In this document: piece after piece, positions 36,209 through 49,649 of the stretch
How the letters are laid out: each line of letters opens with the position of its first letter
How positions within the stretch are numbered: the stretch's first letter is position 1
Virus record (IMG/VR): IMGVR_UViG_3300043313_000502
Span: 1 to 56,391 of that record
Strand: one strand, 5' to 3'
Origin: a virus
DNA: 56,391 bases
The notes under the pieces: model-generated
Told to the model about the DNA's origin: nothing
The model's input: only the letters and a program-made list of their open reading frames with translations
Database searches by the model: none
Translations under genes and position numbers: made by a program

Positions 36209-36220
36209 GACGTTCCCTTC

Positions 36221-38545: not shown

Positions 38546-38563
38546 TCGTGTTCCCTTCTGGGT

Positions 38564-40262: not shown

Positions 40263-40460
40263 TCAGTGAAGCTCGACGGTGACGGTGGCGTGATCGATCC
40301 CCTTGCCGTCGTTCGGAAGAGCGGACTTCTTGATGTATAGCGTCCCAATCACTGGAGTCCCGCCCTCGGGGGGAACCTCCTTGAACCTGATGGTCCCGGG
40401 CGTCTCCTTATCGAGCCTGAAATCTACGTTTATCGTCGTGGGCGCGCTCTTCGCTGACAT
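40263..40460 (-). CDS. Hypothetical small beta-rich protein
   Basis: The ATG at 40460 follows CGAAGGGAACG. The 65-residue product has PTTINVDFRLDKETPGTIRF and TPVIGTLYIKKSALPNDGKG, a regular beta pattern. Small proteins with this look are common next to phage recombination genes, but I cannot assign a function. Confidence 0.7.
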   Translation of the reverse strand: MSAKSAPTTINVDFRLDKETPGTIRFKEVPPEGGTPVIGTLYIKKSALPNDGKGIDHATVTVELH

Positions 40461-40521
40461 GTGCGTTCCCTTCGTAGGTTGTTCGTGTTGTCTGAAGCTA
40501 CCCTCTAGAGAGCGGCTGCCG

Positions 40522-45046: not shown

Positions 45047-45751
45047 CTACCGGACCGAAACGGCCGGGCTAACCGGCGCCACGGTGTCTAGCTCGATCGT
45101 CCGAATCACGATCGCCTGGAGCTCTGGCTTGCGCATGCCCTGTGCATCGATCCCGTGCTCCGCTGCCTCGACCCGAAGGGCCGAGATCGGCATTGCCAGG
45201 ATCCGGTTGCGCTCGCGAGTAAGGGCAGTCTTGGTGTTGATGGCGTCCTGCTCGACCTTGCTCCGCTTCCGACCGATCTCCGCTGCGGGCTGGACCCGAG
45301 CTTCCTCGGCGAGGATGCTCGTGAAGTCCGGGCGGATAACTGACTTGATGATCTCGGCGACTGCGATGAAGCAGACCACGATCACGTAGATAACGCCAAC
45401 GGTGACGTTCGGCGAGCCGAGGAAGTTCACCATGCTGCTGGCAGCTACCGGGAAGAGGAGGAAGCCGAGGGCAACCTTCTTAGCCAACCGGTCCATACCC
45501 GCTGCGCTTAGGACCTTAACGCACAGGATCGTCATCAGGTCGATCACGATCGGGATTACGAGAGAGCCGAACACGTCGGTCCCCTTCGCCTGGAGGAAGT
45601 GCATCTGGTGCTGGAAGCTCGCTGCCATTACCAGAACGGTAATCGCCATAGCCAGCTTCTTTGCCCACTTGATAGCGCTGAGCATTTCCTCTACGGCCTT
45701 AGAGCCGTACTGCTCTGCGAAGCGCTGTCCGGGGGTCTTGGTGGTGTTCAT
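45047..45751 (-). CDS. DUF2637-like membrane protein with C-terminal SAP-like motif
   Basis: The ATG at 45751 follows CGAAGGGAACG and gives 234 residues. About four hydrophobic spans lie between residues 30 and 130. The segments ASFQHQMHFLQAKGTDVFGS and LVIPIVIDLMTILCVKVLSA resemble DUF2637 proteins of actinobacterial plasmids, some of which take part in plasmid spread. A charged helix follows, then AAEHGIDAQGMRKPELQAIV, which resembles a SAP helix pair. It may link DNA to the membrane. Confidence 0.7.
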   Translation of the reverse strand: MNTTKTPGQRFAEQYGSKAVEEMLSAIKWAKKLAMAITVLVMAASFQHQMHFLQAKGTDVFGSLVIPIVIDLMTILCVKVLSAAGMDRLAKKVALGFLLFPVAASSMVNFLGSPNVTVGVIYVIVVCFIAVAEIIKSVIRPDFTSILAEEARVQPAAEIGRKRSKVEQDAINTKTALTRERNRILAMPISALRVEAAEHGIDAQGMRKPELQAIVIRTIELDTVAPVSPAVSVR

Positions 45752-45754
45752 GCT

Positions 45755-45801
45755 CGTTCCCTTCGTTTGTGGAGGTCTCGCTACCTCCAACTCCTAAGGT
45801 A
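45755..45801 (-). promoter_or_regulatory. Leader module 4: -10-like element, GCGAG-loop hairpin, ribosome-binding site
   Basis: On the minus strand: TACCTT (45801-45796), then TGGAGGT and ACCTCCA (arms 45783-45789 and 45770-45776) around loop AGCGAG, then CGAAGGGAACG (45765-45755) just before the ATG at 45751. It has the same order and spacing as three other modules, with a different stem sequence. Confidence 0.7.
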
Positions 45802-46071
45802 CCCGAAGTCAAGTCTTCTGACTACCGCCTTCTACCAGGGGCGCATCACACACCCGCCCTGGCGCGCTACGGGTAGCCGCTCCAAAACTCCAATTACTAC
45901 TCTGCGTCGCCGAAATTCCATTGATGGTAATGGGGTATAGTGCCAAACCACCCTTACATCACACCGGTTGACGTTTTTCCCCAACCGTTCGTCTGACGTT
46001 GAAAAGCGTCGATTCGGACAGCGGCCGAAAAGTTGAAGAACGAATCGGACGTCTCGTTTGGCCCCGGGAAC
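45802..46071. other. Gene-free regulatory stretch of about 270 bases
   Basis: No supported gene lies here. It contains two TTGACGTT-like copies (45968-45975 and a variant at 45993-46002), near-repeats CGATTCGGA (46010-46018) and CGAATCGGA (46040-46048), and locally A/T-richer sequence near 45900-45980. It lies between a terminator and leader module 4, so it likely carries promoter or operator sites. Confidence 0.4.
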
Positions 46072-46108
46072 AAGTCGGGCACTACCCTCAGCAAGCAGTG
46101 CCCGACTT
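46072..46108. terminator. 12-bp terminator hairpin
   Basis: Arms AAGTCGGGCACT (46072-46083) and AGTGCCCGACTT (46097-46108) pair perfectly around 13 bases. It stands directly after the gene ending at 46117 and closes its transcript on the minus strand (TTGTTCC follows). Confidence 0.88.
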
Positions 46109-46116
46109 CAATCCTT

Positions 46117-46959
46117 TTAGGACTCCACGCGGACCGTCTTAACGCCTTCCTTCGGTCGGCCGGTCCTCACGACGCCCCGCCCCCTGCCAACCGCCCGGAG
46201 CGCGGACACCCGAAACGCCCGGAAGCCGGTCGCCGGGCAACAGAACAGGACGACGCGCTCCCCGTGCTGCTCCTCAACGCGAATCCTGCGCGGATCCTGT
46301 CCGACCGTCGCGGACTCCTCGGTGTTCGTGAACCGGTTGTGCCACTTGATGGCCTTGCCCACGATCCGCTCTATGATCTCGATATCGGTGGCCAGCGTTG
46401 GATCGAAGGGGAGTCGGCTCTTGGGAGGCGCTGGACGAACTACCTCGCGCGGCTTGAACGCCTTGTTCTCTGCTACCCGCTTGAGTTCCGCCGCCGCCTC
46501 GACCGGAGGGCGGGAGGCGTACTGCTTAGCGTGCGAGGCGTTGCGCGTGAGAACCGTCCGATCCCCAACCGTGTACGTAGCGGGGTGCTGGTACACTCCA
46601 CCGTGCCACGATTGGAACAGGACTTCGATGCCCCGAGTCGCCACTACCTCGATGACCTCGCCCTGCGTGTTGAACTCGCAGGACCATCCGAACTCGGCTA
46701 CCGCCTGTTGGAACGCTAGCGCCTTGGCTACGCTCTTGGTGTCCTCGGTAGGGGCTGCCCCTGTTGTGACCGCTACGGCAGTCCTAGAGGGCTTGCCGGT
46801 ACGCTCGGCGCCTACGTGGACCGCCCGCCCCCGGGAAGCGACGCTCCGGGGCGGATACCGGTCCACGATCGGGTCTGGTAGCGGTGTCCGCTGCGCTGCC
46901 CGATCGTGCTTCGCCTTCGCCACACTCCGGAGTCCAGCCCGGCTTGCTGTAGTCGTCAT
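46117..46959 (-). CDS. Hypothetical early protein
   Basis: The 280-residue product has an ATG after GACGAAGGGGACGACC, a variant of the early ribosome-binding site. The first 70 residues are basic and low in complexity. The core begins TKSVAKALAFQQAVAEFGWS and has GGVYQHPATYTVGDRTVLTR. The end is basic (VLFCCPATGFRAFRVSALRA onward). No family is recognised. It ends at a terminator. Confidence 0.75.
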   Translation of the reverse strand: MTTTASRAGLRSVAKAKHDRAAQRTPLPDPIVDRYPPRSVASRGRAVHVGAERTGKPSRTAVAVTTGAAPTEDTKSVAKALAFQQAVAEFGWSCEFNTQGEVIEVVATRGIEVLFQSWHGGVYQHPATYTVGDRTVLTRNASHAKQYASRPPVEAAAELKRVAENKAFKPREVVRPAPPKSRLPFDPTLATDIEIIERIVGKAIKWHNRFTNTEESATVGQDPRRIRVEEQHGERVVLFCCPATGFRAFRVSALRAVGRGRGVVRTGRPKEGVKTVRVES

Positions 46960-47101
46960 GGTCGTCCCCTTCGTCGAATGCTCGCCTTGCTTCTTGGATC
47001 CGCTGTACCTCTGGAATGCCGACAGGAATGCCCACCTGTGTTAATACTCGTGCCAGGTCTAGCGCCCGGATTTCTTCCTCTGCCGCCTGATACCTGTTCA
47101 C
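46784..47101 (-). CDS. Possible small early protein overlapping the next gene
   Basis: The frame starts at GTG after GAGAGGAGCAAGG and begins NRYQAAEEEIRALDLARVLT. Residues 1-55 look like a real small protein, ending in an acidic stretch. Residues 56-105 lie inside the next gene in another phase and look like its shadow. The start is credible. The long 176-base overlap is unusual. Confidence 0.5.
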   Translation of the reverse strand: MNRYQAAEEEIRALDLARVLTQVGIPVGIPEVQRIQEARRAFDEGDDHDDYSKPGWTPECGEGEARSGSAADTATRPDRGPVSAPERRFPGAGGPRRRRAYRQAL

Positions 47102-47279
47102 TCCCTTGCTCCTCTCGGTTGTACAGGGGGCTCCGGTCCGGACGGAGGACTTGTCTCGTCCGGACCGGGCCTCTCAGTTACCTACCGGCGACGCGATCTC
47201 ACCGATGGGAGTTGAGGTACCTGCCTCTTCCACGCGCCGAGCACGGGAAGCTCTGTCGATCTGGATCTCTCTAGTCGCT
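47102..47279. other. 178-base gap with one inverted repeat
   Basis: I find no convincing gene here. A 10-bp inverted repeat lies near 47132-47163: GGTCCGGACG and CGTCCGGACC around 12 bases. It could end the upstream transcript but has no T-run. A TACAAC near 47124 on the minus strand is a weak -10 candidate for the next gene. Confidence 0.4.
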
Positions 47280-47429
47280 TCAGATTTCGTACTTTGCCAA
47301 ACAGCGCTCGCAATCGCACTCTACGACGCTTCCGTTGGAGTTAAGGGCGTTTCCCTGCGCGTCCGTCCACGGGTAGACCTGCTTCCCGGTCTCTGGGTTA
47401 ACCTCGGGCCGGATCTCTTCGTGCTCCAT
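47280..47429 (-). CDS. Small Cys-containing early protein
   Basis: This 49-residue frame has its own leader hairpin and GAAGGGAACG site. The product is MEHEEIRPEVNPETGKQVYP, then WTDAQGNALN and VVECDCERCLAKYEI. The C-x-C-x2-C cluster at the end could bind metal. Function unknown. The strong leader module makes the gene convincing despite its size. Confidence 0.75.
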   Translation of the reverse strand: MEHEEIRPEVNPETGKQVYPWTDAQGNALNSNGSVVECDCERCLAKYEI

Positions 47430-47433
47430 TTTT

Positions 47434-47480
47434 CGTTCCCTTCGTCTGGCCCTCTCGCAGGGCCTTCAACTCCGACTGTA
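47434..47480 (-). promoter_or_regulatory. Leader module 3: TACAGT, GCGAG-loop hairpin, ribosome-binding site
   Basis: On the minus strand: TACAGT (47480-47475), then GGCCCT and AGGGCC (arms 47459-47464 and 47448-47453) around loop GCGAG, then CGAAGGGAACG (47444-47434) and the ATG at 47429. The stem sequence differs fully from the other modules while the pairing is kept. Confidence 0.75.
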
Positions 47481-47512
47481 CTCCTTGAAGCCTCCGGAGG
47501 AAAGCCGGGGGA

Positions 47513-47541
47513 GAAAGAAAGGCGGGAACCGTAGCTCCCGC
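47513..47541 (-). terminator. Rho-independent terminator
   Basis: On the minus strand GCGGGA (47541-47536) pairs with TCCCGC (47527-47522) and is followed by CTTTCTTT. It ends the transcript of the gene stopping at 47554, just before leader module 3. Confidence 0.85.
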
Positions 47542-47553
47542 TCCTTCGATCGC

Positions 47554-48207
47554 TTACGACGCGAGCCGAAGAAGCTCGGCCACGTTCCGGATCTTCCGCG
47601 TCTTGCCCTCGACCGTGTACGTTCCGCCGGTTGTCCGGCCCTGCGCGTCCCACACCATCGTGCCCGAGACCCCGCCGAGCGCGACGCGGAGGTACGTGAC
47701 GCCCTTGGAGTTCGTAACGTCGGCCGTCCAGGCCTTCGAAAGCTGCGCGATCGTCTGCGCGGCCTTCTCCTCGCCGCTCGCTCGCAGCGTGACGTGCATG
47801 ACCTGCCCGATCCGGGAGGTCCCGCGCTTCGCGACGTACTCCGCGCTCGCCCTGTTGAGCTCCGGGTGGCAGATCCAGCAGTCGCCAAGCGTATAGCCGA
47901 GCGAGTCCTCATCAGCCTTCAACATCTCTTCGTGGCCCTGGTCGCTGTGCGTGTTCTCCCAACCCGCCTCTTCTAGGCACAGCTTGCACAACTGGCCCTC
48001 GGGGGACTCCTTCGTGGCGGGACGGGTCTCGCACGACACGCAGCGCCTGCTCTGCATCCGGCTCGGCTTCGCGATCGCCTCAAACTCGGCCTGCTTTGCC
48101 TCGATTGCCGGGATGAGGGTCGCCTTGTTGGCAGAGGACATGCCCTTGATTTCGAGGTCGCGGGCAACCTTGCGGAGGTCCGTCGTCTTCAGCTCGGAGA
48201 GGTTCAT
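47554..48207 (-). CDS. SAP/Rho-N-like and zinc-binding early protein
   Basis: The ATG at 48207 follows CGAAGGGAACGAA and gives 217 residues. The N-terminus LSELKTTDLRKVARDLEIKG then MSSANKATLIPAI is a SAP/Rho-N-like helical domain. A Cys-rich part follows: RRCVSCETRPATK with QLCKLCLEEAG, then DCWICHPEL. The C-terminal 80 residues look beta-rich. It is probably a nucleic-acid-binding early protein. The target is unknown. Confidence 0.75.
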   Translation of the reverse strand: MNLSELKTTDLRKVARDLEIKGMSSANKATLIPAIEAKQAEFEAIAKPSRMQSRRCVSCETRPATKESPEGQLCKLCLEEAGWENTHSDQGHEEMLKADEDSLGYTLGDCWICHPELNRASAEYVAKRGTSRIGQVMHVTLRASGEEKAAQTIAQLSKAWTADVTNSKGVTYLRVALGGVSGTMVWDAQGRTTGGTYTVEGKTRKIRNVAELLRLAS

Positions 48208-48210
48208 TTC

Positions 48211-48262
48211 GTTCCCTTCGTCTCGGGGAGGTCTCGCACCTCCCCTTGCAAGACCAACTGTA
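48211..48262 (-). promoter_or_regulatory. Leader module 2: TACAGT, GCGAG-loop hairpin, ribosome-binding site
   Basis: On the minus strand: TACAGT (48262-48257), then GGGGAGGT and ACCTCCCC (arms 48238-48245 and 48225-48232) around loop GCGAG, then CGAAGGGAACG just before the ATG at 48207. The eight-base stem is the longest of the four modules. Confidence 0.78.
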
Positions 48263-48287
48263 CTCCAACTTTTGACGTTGCACACCA

Positions 48288-48318
48288 GAAAGGTGGGGGA
48301 ATTTTTCTCCCCCACCTT
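48288..48318. terminator. Terminator hairpin
   Basis: Arms AAGGTGGGGGA (48290-48300) and TCCCCCACCTT (48308-48318) pair over 11 bp around a seven-base loop, with A/T-rich flanks. It closes the transcript of the DnaQ-like gene just before leader module 2. Confidence 0.88.
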
Positions 48319-48331
48319 ACCCAGCGCTTCC

Positions 48332-48928
48332 CTAGATCCCTAGCGCGTCGCAGGCGCTCTGGTAGTCGACGAGCACGCCCGTGCACCAAGCCGAGCAGCC
48401 GAGGCTAGGCGATCCACCCATCAAGATTAGCTCCACGACGTCCCTGAGCAGGTGCACCAGGACCGCTGTCCGGCGGCCGTCGAACAGTCCCTGGGGAACC
48501 TCTCGCGAAGGGATGTCCTCGCCGCGCCAGATCTTGTCCTGTCGGACCATCTCGACCCAGTTCAGATCCTCGGCTCCAGGCACGGCGGGGAACGTCGGGA
48601 AGTGCAGGTGCGCCCGGCGCGCATTCGTGAATCGTCCTCGACAGATCATCTCGTCGAACTGGCGGGTAGCACAATAGGCAACCTCTGACGCGTAGCGCAG
48701 AGACTCGCCTAGCTGTCCGAGCACATGCGCCTCTACGCCCTCGGAGTCGATGATCTCGATAATCCCGTCCCGCGCTACGCCTGCGAGTGCAATAGACCAG
48801 CGCCTCTTCAGCACCTCACCGTTCGGCATCCGAAATCCCTCGGGGGTCGGAACCTTTACAGTCTCCAGATCTAGGAAGGCGACGCCCTCCAGGAAGGTCC
48901 CCGGAACCTCGATCTCATATACGCCCAT
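48332..48928 (-). CDS. DnaQ-like DEDD 3'-5' exonuclease
   Basis: The ATG at 48928 lies just after the upstream stop and gives 198 residues. EGVAFLDLETVKVPTPEG carries Asp20 and Glu22 of motif I. YCATRQFDEMICRG carries Asp92 of motif II. VLVHLLRDVVELI carries a His-x3-Asp (159/163) for motif III. This is the order of RNase H-fold DEDD exonucleases. It could proofread for the phage polymerase or degrade RNA or DNA early. Motif III is imperfect. Confidence 0.68.
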   Translation of the reverse strand: MGVYEIEVPGTFLEGVAFLDLETVKVPTPEGFRMPNGEVLKRRWSIALAGVARDGIIEIIDSEGVEAHVLGQLGESLRYASEVAYCATRQFDEMICRGRFTNARRAHLHFPTFPAVPGAEDLNWVEMVRQDKIWRGEDIPSREVPQGLFDGRRTAVLVHLLRDVVELILMGGSPSLGCSAWCTGVLVDYQSACDALGI

Positions 48929-48929
48929 C

Positions 48930-49205
48930 TCAGCACTCTCCCGCGTGCGTCGCGAGGCAGCGAGGGCAGGCCGCCGCGCGCACGGCCGCGACGTTAGCCA
49001 TATCCTTTGCAATCGCGTTTCGCTCCCGAGTAACTGCGCGTCGCCGCGCCGCCGCCTCCTCGCGCCGGTCACACTCGGCCGCATACACCGGGTCCTCGAT
49101 CCTACGCGCCAGCTCAAGACCCTCCCGGGCCAAGCTACGGGTCGCGGGGTTCTGCGCGAGGCTAGAGGACAGGAGCCTCATAGTCTCCACCAATACATCC
49201 TGCAT
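48930..49205 (-). CDS. Hypothetical early helical protein with CPRC end
   Basis: The 91-residue product has its own leader module and is mostly helix (LLSSSLAQNPATRSLAREGL, then CDRREEAAARRRAVTRERNA). It ends AACPRCLATHAGEC, a C-x2-C and final Cys with a His that may bind zinc. It shares an mRNA with the DnaQ-like gene. Function unknown. Confidence 0.72.
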   Translation of the reverse strand: MQDVLVETMRLLSSSLAQNPATRSLAREGLELARRIEDPVYAAECDRREEAAARRRAVTRERNAIAKDMANVAAVRAAACPRCLATHAGEC

Positions 49206-49208
49206 TTT

Positions 49209-49255
49209 CGTTCCCTTCTTCTAGGGGTCTCGCGCCCCTACCAACGTCAACTGTA
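49209..49255 (-). promoter_or_regulatory. Leader module 1: TACAGT, GCGAG-loop hairpin, ribosome-binding site
   Basis: On the minus strand: TACAGT (49255-49250), with TTGTTC 17 bases upstream as a weak -35, then TAGGGG and CCCCTA (arms 49235-49240 and 49222-49227) around loop CGCGAGA, then GAAGGGAACG before the ATG at 49205. It is the first promoter after the late terminator. Confidence 0.72.
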
Positions 49256-49275: not shown

Positions 49276-49317
49276 CAAGGGAAGGCCGGTCCGGGTTGCG
49301 AGATCCCAGACCGGCCC
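49276..49317 (-). terminator. Terminator at the end of the late operon
   Basis: On the minus strand GGCCGGTC (49316-49309) pairs with GACCGGCC (49291-49284), extended inside by GGG/CCC, and is followed by TTCCCTTGTTC. It closes the late transcript after the holin gene. The 228-base gap 49206-49433 holds this, leader module 1 and no convincing gene. Confidence 0.85.
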
Positions 49318-49433
49318 AAACGGGACCGCGCGTCAGGAGGGGAAGGGAACGACTCCGACCCTCAACCGAGCGACTTCCTTCACCCGTTCGTTTTCCCTGC
49401 ATGCTCGATCGTACGCCGCGACAAAAACTGCGG

Positions 49434-49649
49434 CTAGTAGCCTCCTCGCGAGGATGGGGGCCGGGTGGCAGGCCGGGTAGAAGTAAACGCTGCCTGAGCG
49501 TTGGGGATCTGGTACACACCCCAAGCGGATACAGCGGCTAGGATGATGGCGATGATGTCAGCCGCCTTCGTGTTACCCGGCCAAAGAATCGCGGTAATAG
49601 ACCCCACGGCGCCGAGCGCTGCCACAATGAACTTCCGATACTTCTCCAT
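49434..49649 (-). CDS. Holin-like small membrane protein
   Basis: The 71-residue protein follows the endolysin gene. It has two apolar segments, FIVAALGAVGSITAILWPG (8-26) and ADIIAIILAAVSAWGVYQI (30-48), then a polar tail. Two spans, small size and position fit a class II-like holin that would release the endolysin. A single-domain phage membrane protein of another kind cannot be excluded. Confidence 0.72.
   Translation of the reverse strand: MEKYRKFIVAALGAVGSITAILWPGNTKAADIIAIILAAVSAWGVYQIPNAQAAFTSTRPATRPPSSRGGY

Follow-up and report, generated by a model that had tools for sequence, protein, structure and literature searches.

A predicted antisense RNA of an uncultured, actinophage-like virus probably represses at least seven of the phage's own early genes, by kissing the loops of their leaders and covering their Shine–Dalgarno regions. 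This reading, to which we assign a probability of roughly 0.78, comes from an analysis of the sequence of a window of 56,391 nt (IMGVR_UViG_3300043313_000502; win in the genome comparisons) and its relatives. The evidence consists of four leader modules, further copies of their conserved box, an intergenic locus carrying complements of both box and leader loop, and matched changes at the two sites in related phages.

Leader modules and boxes in the window

Four modules were found at the positions originally predicted, all on the minus strand and each with the order TANNNT -10 element, hairpin, GAAGGGAACG box, and ATG. In leader 1 (49209–49255), TACAGT (49255–49250) was followed by the hairpin TAGGGG-CGCGAGA-CCCCTA (49240–49222), the box GAAGGGAACG (49218–49209), and the ATG at 49205 of a 91-aa gene (48930–49205) without a match in the family search. 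Leader 2 (48210–48262) comprised TACAGT (48262–48257), the hairpin GGGGAGGT-GCGAG-ACCTCCCC (48245–48225), and a box (48219–48210) before the ATG at 48207 of a 217-aa gene (47554–48207) with an N-terminal Rho_N-type domain (PF07498, E 3.5e-06), for which a search for relatives gave none. Leader 3 (47434–47480), with TACAGT (47480–47475), GGCCCT-GCGAG-AGGGCC (47464–47448), and a box (47443–47434), preceded the ATG at 47429 of a 49-aa gene (47280–47429). Leader 4 (45755–45801), with TACCTT (45801–45796), TGGAGGT-AGCGAG-ACCTCCA (45789–45770), and a box (45764–45755), led to the ATG at 45751 of a 234-aa DUF2637 protein (45047–45751; PF10935, E 3e-05), a relative of which was found in no cultured phage. 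All four target genes lie on the minus strand. No match to ant was found among the genes scanned, the leader targets being other early-type genes, and the DNA similarity of the window to phage records amounted to about 50 bases and nothing beyond.

As first described, the stems differed in sequence while their arms were exact complements around a constant GCGAG loop, giving perfect stems of 6, 8, 6, and 7 bp in leaders 1 to 4 (shuffle p ≤ 0.01 in three of the four and 0.0115 in the remaining one), at 9, 11, 10, and 6 nt from the -10 element. A scan of every GCGAG for flanking stems of at least 5 bp returned these four leaders only, so the full module is found nowhere else in the window, in agreement with the original prediction. 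Three further starts, absent from that prediction, carried the box (GAAGGGAAC) without the module: those at 40460 (box 40465–40473; 65-aa gene, 40460–40263), 38545 (box 38550–38558; 179-aa gene, 38545–38006, with a weak methyltransferase match), and 36208 (box 36212–36220; 84-aa gene, 36208–35954), all on the minus strand. An additional, antisense copy, which the prediction also lacked, lay at 49342–49352. The seven start-associated GAAGGGAAC boxes represent a long conserved box at the ribosome-binding site (RBS) of non-structural genes, 4–6 nt upstream of the start codon. Because the boxes matched the 16S anti-Shine–Dalgarno sequence over 4 contiguous nt and no more, ribosome binding alone does not explain their conservation.

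A predicted small RNA facing the leaders

The antisense copy falls within a predicted antisense small RNA of about 118 nt to the end of its terminator stem (49284–49401, minus strand; both ends predicted), located in the gap that separates the lysis genes from the first early gene. Its promoter-like region (49408–49436, minus strand; TAGCCGCAGTTTTTGTCGCGGCGTACGAT), with a TACGAT -10 element at 49413–49408, begins at the TAG stop of the upstream lysis gene; a TAGC 23–24 nt before TANNNT was present at the same site in win, G1, G3, G5, G7, G8, and G9. The anti-box TCGTTCCCTTC (49342–49352, minus strand), the complement of GAAGGGAACGA, is the sole antisense GAAGGGAAC copy in the genome. The terminator-like hairpin (49284–49316, minus strand) has the loop ATCTCGCAA, in which CTCGC (49302–49298) is complementary to the leader loops; its TCTCGC complements the leader loop GCGAGA. 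The -10 element, anti-box hairpin, and terminator of this locus were conserved at the same place in seven genomes, and in all seven the anti-box was predicted in the loop part of its hairpin and the terminator loop core was predicted to be unpaired (probability 0.94–1.00). The search that located the anti-box looked for the complement of the box, which makes the presence of the anti-box by itself partly circular as evidence; this does not apply to its constant position or to the separate match at the loop. A search of the window against Rfam gave no match at gathering or plausible E-value, and a match of leader 3 to Flavi_TBFV_SL6 (E 0.0013, below gathering) was attributed to chance.

In the mechanism that we infer, the small RNA would be transcribed, with a timing that is likewise predicted, from a -10-type promoter of its own immediately downstream of the lysis genes, with read-through of the late operon as a possible second source. 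This single RNA would target the four leaders and the three box-only sites, presenting the complement of GAAGGGAACG in one hairpin loop and that of GCGAG in the terminator loop. The 5'-terminal hairpin of a leader would make a kissing contact that nucleates pairing, a box duplex of 9–11 bp over the Shine–Dalgarno region would stop translation, and a set of early genes would be turned down together. As the leaders read 5'-loop...box-3' and the small RNA 5'-anti-box...anti-loop-3', both contacts could form at once in antiparallel orientation.

Covariation in related phages

The module was traced into related phages whose helicases were only 38–59% identical. The claim of a selected RNA structure was borne out there: when 25 distinct hairpins were read from the loop outward, 124 of 125 stem cells were paired, compared with a mean of 71 and a maximum of 91 for shuffled arms. 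This sample represents about four lineages of a single phage group, and stem and loop length varied too much for the automatic alignment that a covariance model needs. The gap between -10 element and hairpin was mostly 9–12 nt across leaders, and each relative had 7–15 start-associated boxes; the loop core was missing at the three box-only targets of the window and at 38 of the 77 start-associated boxes overall. The leader appeared portable, the same one preceding different genes in G1 and G2, and one leader-like site in G1 had no TANNNT at the expected position. The module was absent from the helicase relatives L186–L204 (44–47% identity), so phages that carry this helicase do not in general have it. 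A scan of prokaryote genomes found distant helicases only, a loose pattern scan of viral contigs (GCGAG plus GAAGGGAACG) gave chance matches only, and a scan for the promoter pattern returned the genomes already known together with one incomplete contig, L298.

The antisense box was the sole copy and at the same place in win, G1, G2, G3, G5, G7, and G8, and was one of two in G9. The box was GAAGGGAAC in win and G1, GAGAGGGAA(C) in G3, G5, G7, and G9, and GAAGGGACC in G8, and the anti-box differed to match, GAAGGGAAC, GAGAGGGAAC, and GAAGGGACC each facing its own complement in its lineage. The mean perfect complement between box and anti-box was 9.0–11.4 nt within a box type versus 5.0–7.6 nt between types, and the own-complement value was not reached by any of 1500 random stretches drawn from each phage's own genome. 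At the loop contact, GCGAG faced CTCGC in six genomes and GAGAG faced CTCTC. The leader loops of G8 were GGTGAGAG or AGAGAG and its terminator loop was ACTCTCACCC, containing CTCTCACC, the exact complement of GGTGAGAG; the loop-contact matrix gave 6.4 nt for G8 versus 3.0–5.0 nt. In genomes other than G1 and G8, the loop contact spans only about 5 nt and is weak by itself. Judged by sequence, it does not depend on the box contact. The joint alteration of tag and small RNA in relatives is strong sequence evidence of pairing. Lineage-matched complementarity to several mRNAs is the pattern by which a trans-acting antisense RNA is recognized, and the finding that a single RNA complements both loop and box, with both matches restored by compensatory changes elsewhere, points to such an RNA.

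The direction of its effect is probably repressive. Complementarity alone gives no direction, and leaders and small RNA share TANNNT-type promoters and so may be made together, as would suit an intergenic RNA that pairs to activate or buffer, by opening an inhibitory leader structure, stabilizing the mRNAs, or being sponged by early mRNAs. The box lies at the ribosome's binding place, however, where pairing should block initiation, and we regard activation or buffering as unlikely. It is still less probable that the hairpins are 5'-terminal mRNA stabilizers, the box a strong RBS, and the intergenic hairpin an ordinary terminator. The hairpins do begin a few nt from the predicted mRNA 5' end, and the intergenic hairpin looks terminator-like, but stabilizers need no conserved loop, the GCGAG-to-GAGAG change is mirrored in the terminator loop, and the box is a poor Shine–Dalgarno sequence (4 nt) with a 9–11 nt match to the intergenic RNA. 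We give equally little credence to a phage or host protein that binds the GCGAG hairpin, in the manner of coat-protein or boxB sites, and regulates translation or antitermination: a fixed loop on a variable stem is typical of protein-bound hairpins, and a protein could act additionally as a chaperone, but protein binding needs neither a second RNA complementing loop and box nor matched changes in both. The original view of the leader hairpin thus stands for a selected RNA near the predicted mRNA 5' end, common to several early-type genes, but not for mRNA stabilization or protein binding as its main function. Finally, the antisense box as the RBS of a small opposite-strand gene, suggested by an ATG after the antisense copy in G5, was rejected as highly improbable, since win, G3, G7, and G9 lack a suitably spaced start codon.

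Antisense RNAs and start-associated sequences of other phages

If the antisense reading holds, a phage antisense RNA governs a regulon of the phage's own genes through a standardized, portable two-contact leader; the literature searched described no equivalent system, the phage antisense RNAs there that act on phage mRNAs being single-target. Whether phage antisense RNAs likewise target the repeated start-associated boxes of many unrelated phages, one RNA switching whole gene classes via a standard leader, we consider an even bet. This idea offers a testable answer to the role of actinophage start-associated sequences. The mycobacteriophages Konstantine and Predator carry the box GAAACGGAC ahead of many genes. 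Hairpins with variable stems lie upstream of it, and its single antisense copy occupies the loop of a strong intergenic hairpin that is conserved and covaries. Box and loop differ from those of the window phage, and a complement of the leader loop was not seen in the Konstantine/Predator RNA. To our knowledge, no RNA has been published for these phages; because Mycobacterium smegmatis is a host of both, a laboratory strain can serve to test the idea. The uncultured L139–L156 have a single antisense copy in a strong hairpin loop with a CAGGGAGG core, the loop being kept on very different stems, and in L225–L227 the only antisense copy of GAGAGGAAC likewise sits in a strong hairpin's loop.

Start-associated sequences (SAS) and their extended form (ESAS) are conserved boxes at the RBS of a subset of non-structural genes in cluster K mycobacteriophages and cluster EF Microbacterium phages; a promoter-containing element often lies upstream, and box-only and extended sites coexist (PMC3203893, PMC7302621). 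The window phage likewise has a box at the RBS, a predicted promoter element upstream, and box-only and extended sites side by side, but its lineage's boxes (GAAGGGAAC, GAGAGGGAAC, GAAGGGACC) differ from the SAS consensus GGGATAGGAGCCC or GGGAAAGGACCCC. Its short, variable, covarying stems are also unlike the 17-bp imperfect inverted repeat of the cluster K ESAS, for which the authors found RNA hairpins unsupported (PMC3203893, PMC7302621). Cluster EF resembles the window phage in genome plan (helicase, split DnaE, ThyX, lysis cassette before the helicase) and -10 elements; no antisense box copy was found in the EF stretches examined. In part of cluster K, a single antisense SAS copy lies in a strong hairpin loop, within the interval in which late transcription of Adephagia is reported to start (PMC11373665). 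The copy was present in Anaya, Adephagia, and Amelie, altered in Hammy, and not found in the stretches examined of LeMond, Keshu, Pixie, ZoeJ, and Fionnbharth. Extension to all repeated-box phages failed for EF, cluster K2–K4, LeMond, Keshu, L238, and L248; in the stretches examined, EF and K2–K4 retain start-associated boxes but no antisense copy, so conservation of a box can have other causes.

Among known antisense RNAs, c4 of phages P1 and P7 carries complementary stretches in loops and covers an RBS (PMC12197685). The predicted small RNA resembles it in these features, with its anti-box and anti-loop elements in predicted hairpin loops and the anti-box complementary to the RBS region, although no match to the RNA families described in Rfam was found. 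Unlike c4, which acts on ant mRNA in temperate phages, it matches at least seven separate leaders and would, in addition, kiss a hairpin at the 5' end. The phage RNAs sar (P22) and OOP and aQ (lambda) base-pair with phage mRNA at the single targets ant, cII, and Q (PMC12197685), whereas here the target site is repeated across a putative regulon.

Leader module in the window and its relatives

At 56,391 bases and with a 69-bp terminal repeat, the window looks like a complete phage record, and its minus strand carries genes for tail, capsid, portal, terminase, primase, thymidylate synthase, a split DNA polymerase III and an SNF2-type helicase. Small unknown genes fill the stretch between the lysis genes (endolysin, 50522-49659; a small membrane protein, the last lysis gene, 49649-49434; both minus) and the helicase (44985-42988, minus). 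Four of these small genes carry the leader module and are probably early, since they adjoin the DNA-metabolism genes. The original prediction of four 5′-leader hairpins was borne out in its coordinates, four perfect stems, GCGAG loops, TANNNT boxes and GAAGGGAACG boxes, as was its remark that the module was not seen elsewhere in the genome: among all GCGAG occurrences, only these four form the loop of a stem of at least 5 bp. The box also precedes three more window genes without a hairpin.

The DUF2637 and helicase proteins, used as queries, retrieved uncultured relatives, mostly metagenomic contigs representing about four independent lineages: G1 (IMGVR_UViG_3300028708_000002, with near-copies G2 and L167; 59% helicase identity to the window), G3 (3300045391_001192) and G5 (3300042846_000008), both about 50%, G9 (3300035121_000011; 47%), G7 (3300020020_000031; 56% over a part) and G8 (3300031152_000001; 38%). 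The module was present in all of them, with the −10 TANNNT usually followed after 9-12 nt by the hairpin, after a further 3-9 nt by the box and after 4-6 nt by the start codon. In 25 distinct hairpins, selected for at least 3 bp and counted outward from the loop, standard pairs occupied 124 of 125 stem cells, and G-C, C-G, A-T and T-A pairs were all in use; re-dealing the 3′ arms in 10,000 trials gave a mean of 71 paired cells and a maximum of 91. A loop core lay within 34 nt of the box at 39 of 77 start-associated boxes, several of the 39 lacking a stem; the hairpin is therefore a feature of a subset of boxes, like the extended start-associated sequences (ESAS) among the start-associated sequences (SAS) of other phages. 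G1 (24390) and its close relative G2 (6248) carry one and the same promoter-hairpin module before different genes, whose homologues in the window are 47429 and 48922; the leader thus moves independently of the gene.

A predicted small RNA downstream of the lysis genes

The window contains exactly one antisense copy of the box, TCGTTCCCTTC (49352-49342, minus), about 80 nt beyond the last lysis gene's stop codon. A terminator-like hairpin (49316-49284) comes next; its loop, ATCTCGCAA, contains TCTCGC, which complements GCGAGA. The same arrangement is seen in G1 and G2, which carry GGTTCCCTTC and then a 12-bp hairpin with the loop ACTCTCGCC, and G3, G5, G7, G9 and G8 have an anti-box and terminator hairpin at the equivalent locus, with the order kept and a spacing of about 50-80 nt. 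Upstream of the anti-box, a TAGC element lies 23-24 nt 5′ of a TANNNT, beginning at or near the lysis-gene stop codon. The small RNA would be about 110-150 nt long, judging from predicted transcript ends; in its predicted structure, the anti-box falls within the loop part of a hairpin, and the terminator loop core is unpaired (probability 0.94-1.00). Since it was a search for the box complement that led to the anti-box, its presence weighs less in the argument than its position, its uniqueness and the match at the loops. A truncated contig end (L298, 4569) shows the same small-RNA promoter pattern and is possibly a further family member.

Matched changes and a proposed mechanism

The box is GAAGGGAAC in the window and G1, GAGAGGGAA(C) in G3, G5, G7 and G9, and GAAGGGACC in G8, and each anti-box complements its own box exactly. 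Perfect complementarity between leaders and small RNA averaged 9.0-11.4 nt within a box type and 5.0-7.6 nt between types; the background mean was about 3.5-3.9 nt. The loop contact is a second test of pairing, independent of the box. G8 leader loops read GGTGAGAG or AGAGAG in place of GCGAG, and its terminator loop, ACTCTCACCC, contains CTCTCACC, the exact complement of GGTGAGAG; these leader loops matched their own terminator loop over 6.4 nt, versus 3-5 nt for those of other lineages. The core change from GCGAG to GAGAG is thus accompanied by a complementary change in the G8 small RNA, as base pairing would predict. Neither role first suggested for the hairpins, a protein-binding site or a plain mRNA stabiliser, predicts such a matched change. 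The mRNA presents the loop before the box and the small RNA the anti-box before the anti-loop, an order that a bipartite antiparallel duplex would require.

The leader hairpin lies at the predicted mRNA 5′ end, and we propose that its loop kisses the small-RNA terminator loop and that the anti-box then covers the adjacent box. The match of the boxes to the 16S anti-Shine-Dalgarno extends over just 4 contiguous nt; because the boxes sit where the ribosome binds, a box/anti-box duplex of 9-11 bp should block initiation, this direction of regulation being a proposal. TANNNT-type promoters are common to the small RNA and its targets, and the TAGC element to the small RNA and some targets, suggesting co-expression and feedback. 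Late read-through from the lysis genes directly upstream could also shut off the early genes.

Anti-box hairpins in other phages

Beyond the window family, the antisense-RNA idea is a lead rather than proof, with clear exceptions. The conserved boxes described as SAS in cluster K mycobacteriophages and cluster EF Microbacterium phages have no known function (PMC3203893, PMC7302621, PMC11373665, PMC12699233). Anaya and Adephagia carry an anti-SAS copy in a region that is conserved, with 177 matching records, and for the most part unannotated. On the coding strand the copy reads GCGCGG-CCTCCTATCC-CCGCGC, a hairpin with a loop complementary to the SAS. The Adephagia copy falls within the interval between genes 92 and 93 where late transcription is reported to start (PMC11373665). 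In cluster K, a conserved structured RNA region with the anti-SAS loop lies in that interval, at 47683-48067 (L164) and 46448-46879 (L165); several other phages of the cluster have lost it or carry it in altered form, and Hammy has this loop with a one-base deletion. No antisense SAS copy was found within the stretches read of LeMond, Keshu, Pixie, ZoeJ and Fionnbharth, nor an antisense copy of the box in the EF phage AnnaSerena.

Separately, two type II hammerhead ribozymes passing the Rfam gathering score (RF02276) lie shortly upstream of phage genes in contig L129 (1231-1297 and 2140-2208); further hammerhead-like sites, with a GAAAC...GTC...CTGATGAG core before start codons, occur in L128 and elsewhere in L129.

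Closer likenesses were met by chance among the helicase relatives. The mycobacteriophages Konstantine and Predator combine a start-associated box, GAAACGGAC, with a covarying anti-box hairpin and variable-stem leaders with CAAAAGA-like loops; the conserved intergenic hairpin (Predator, 12695-12765 of L305; Konstantine, 14318-14393 of L306) has the loop GTCCGTTTC, the complement of GAAACGGAC. The uncultured group L139-L156 retains its anti-box loop on very different stems: hairpins of very high stability (about −53 to −58 kcal/mol; L147 8285, L140 7910, L152 7703 and relatives) share the loop TCCTCCCTGG, complementary to the box CAGGGAGG found before about 10 genes. In L225 (8748), L226 (12742) and L227 (5398), whose hairpin loci are identical to one another, the loop of a stable hairpin, GTTCCTCTC, is the only antisense copy of a repeated box, GAGAGGAAC. 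These three sets are better parallels to the window than the SAS of cluster K and EF phages.
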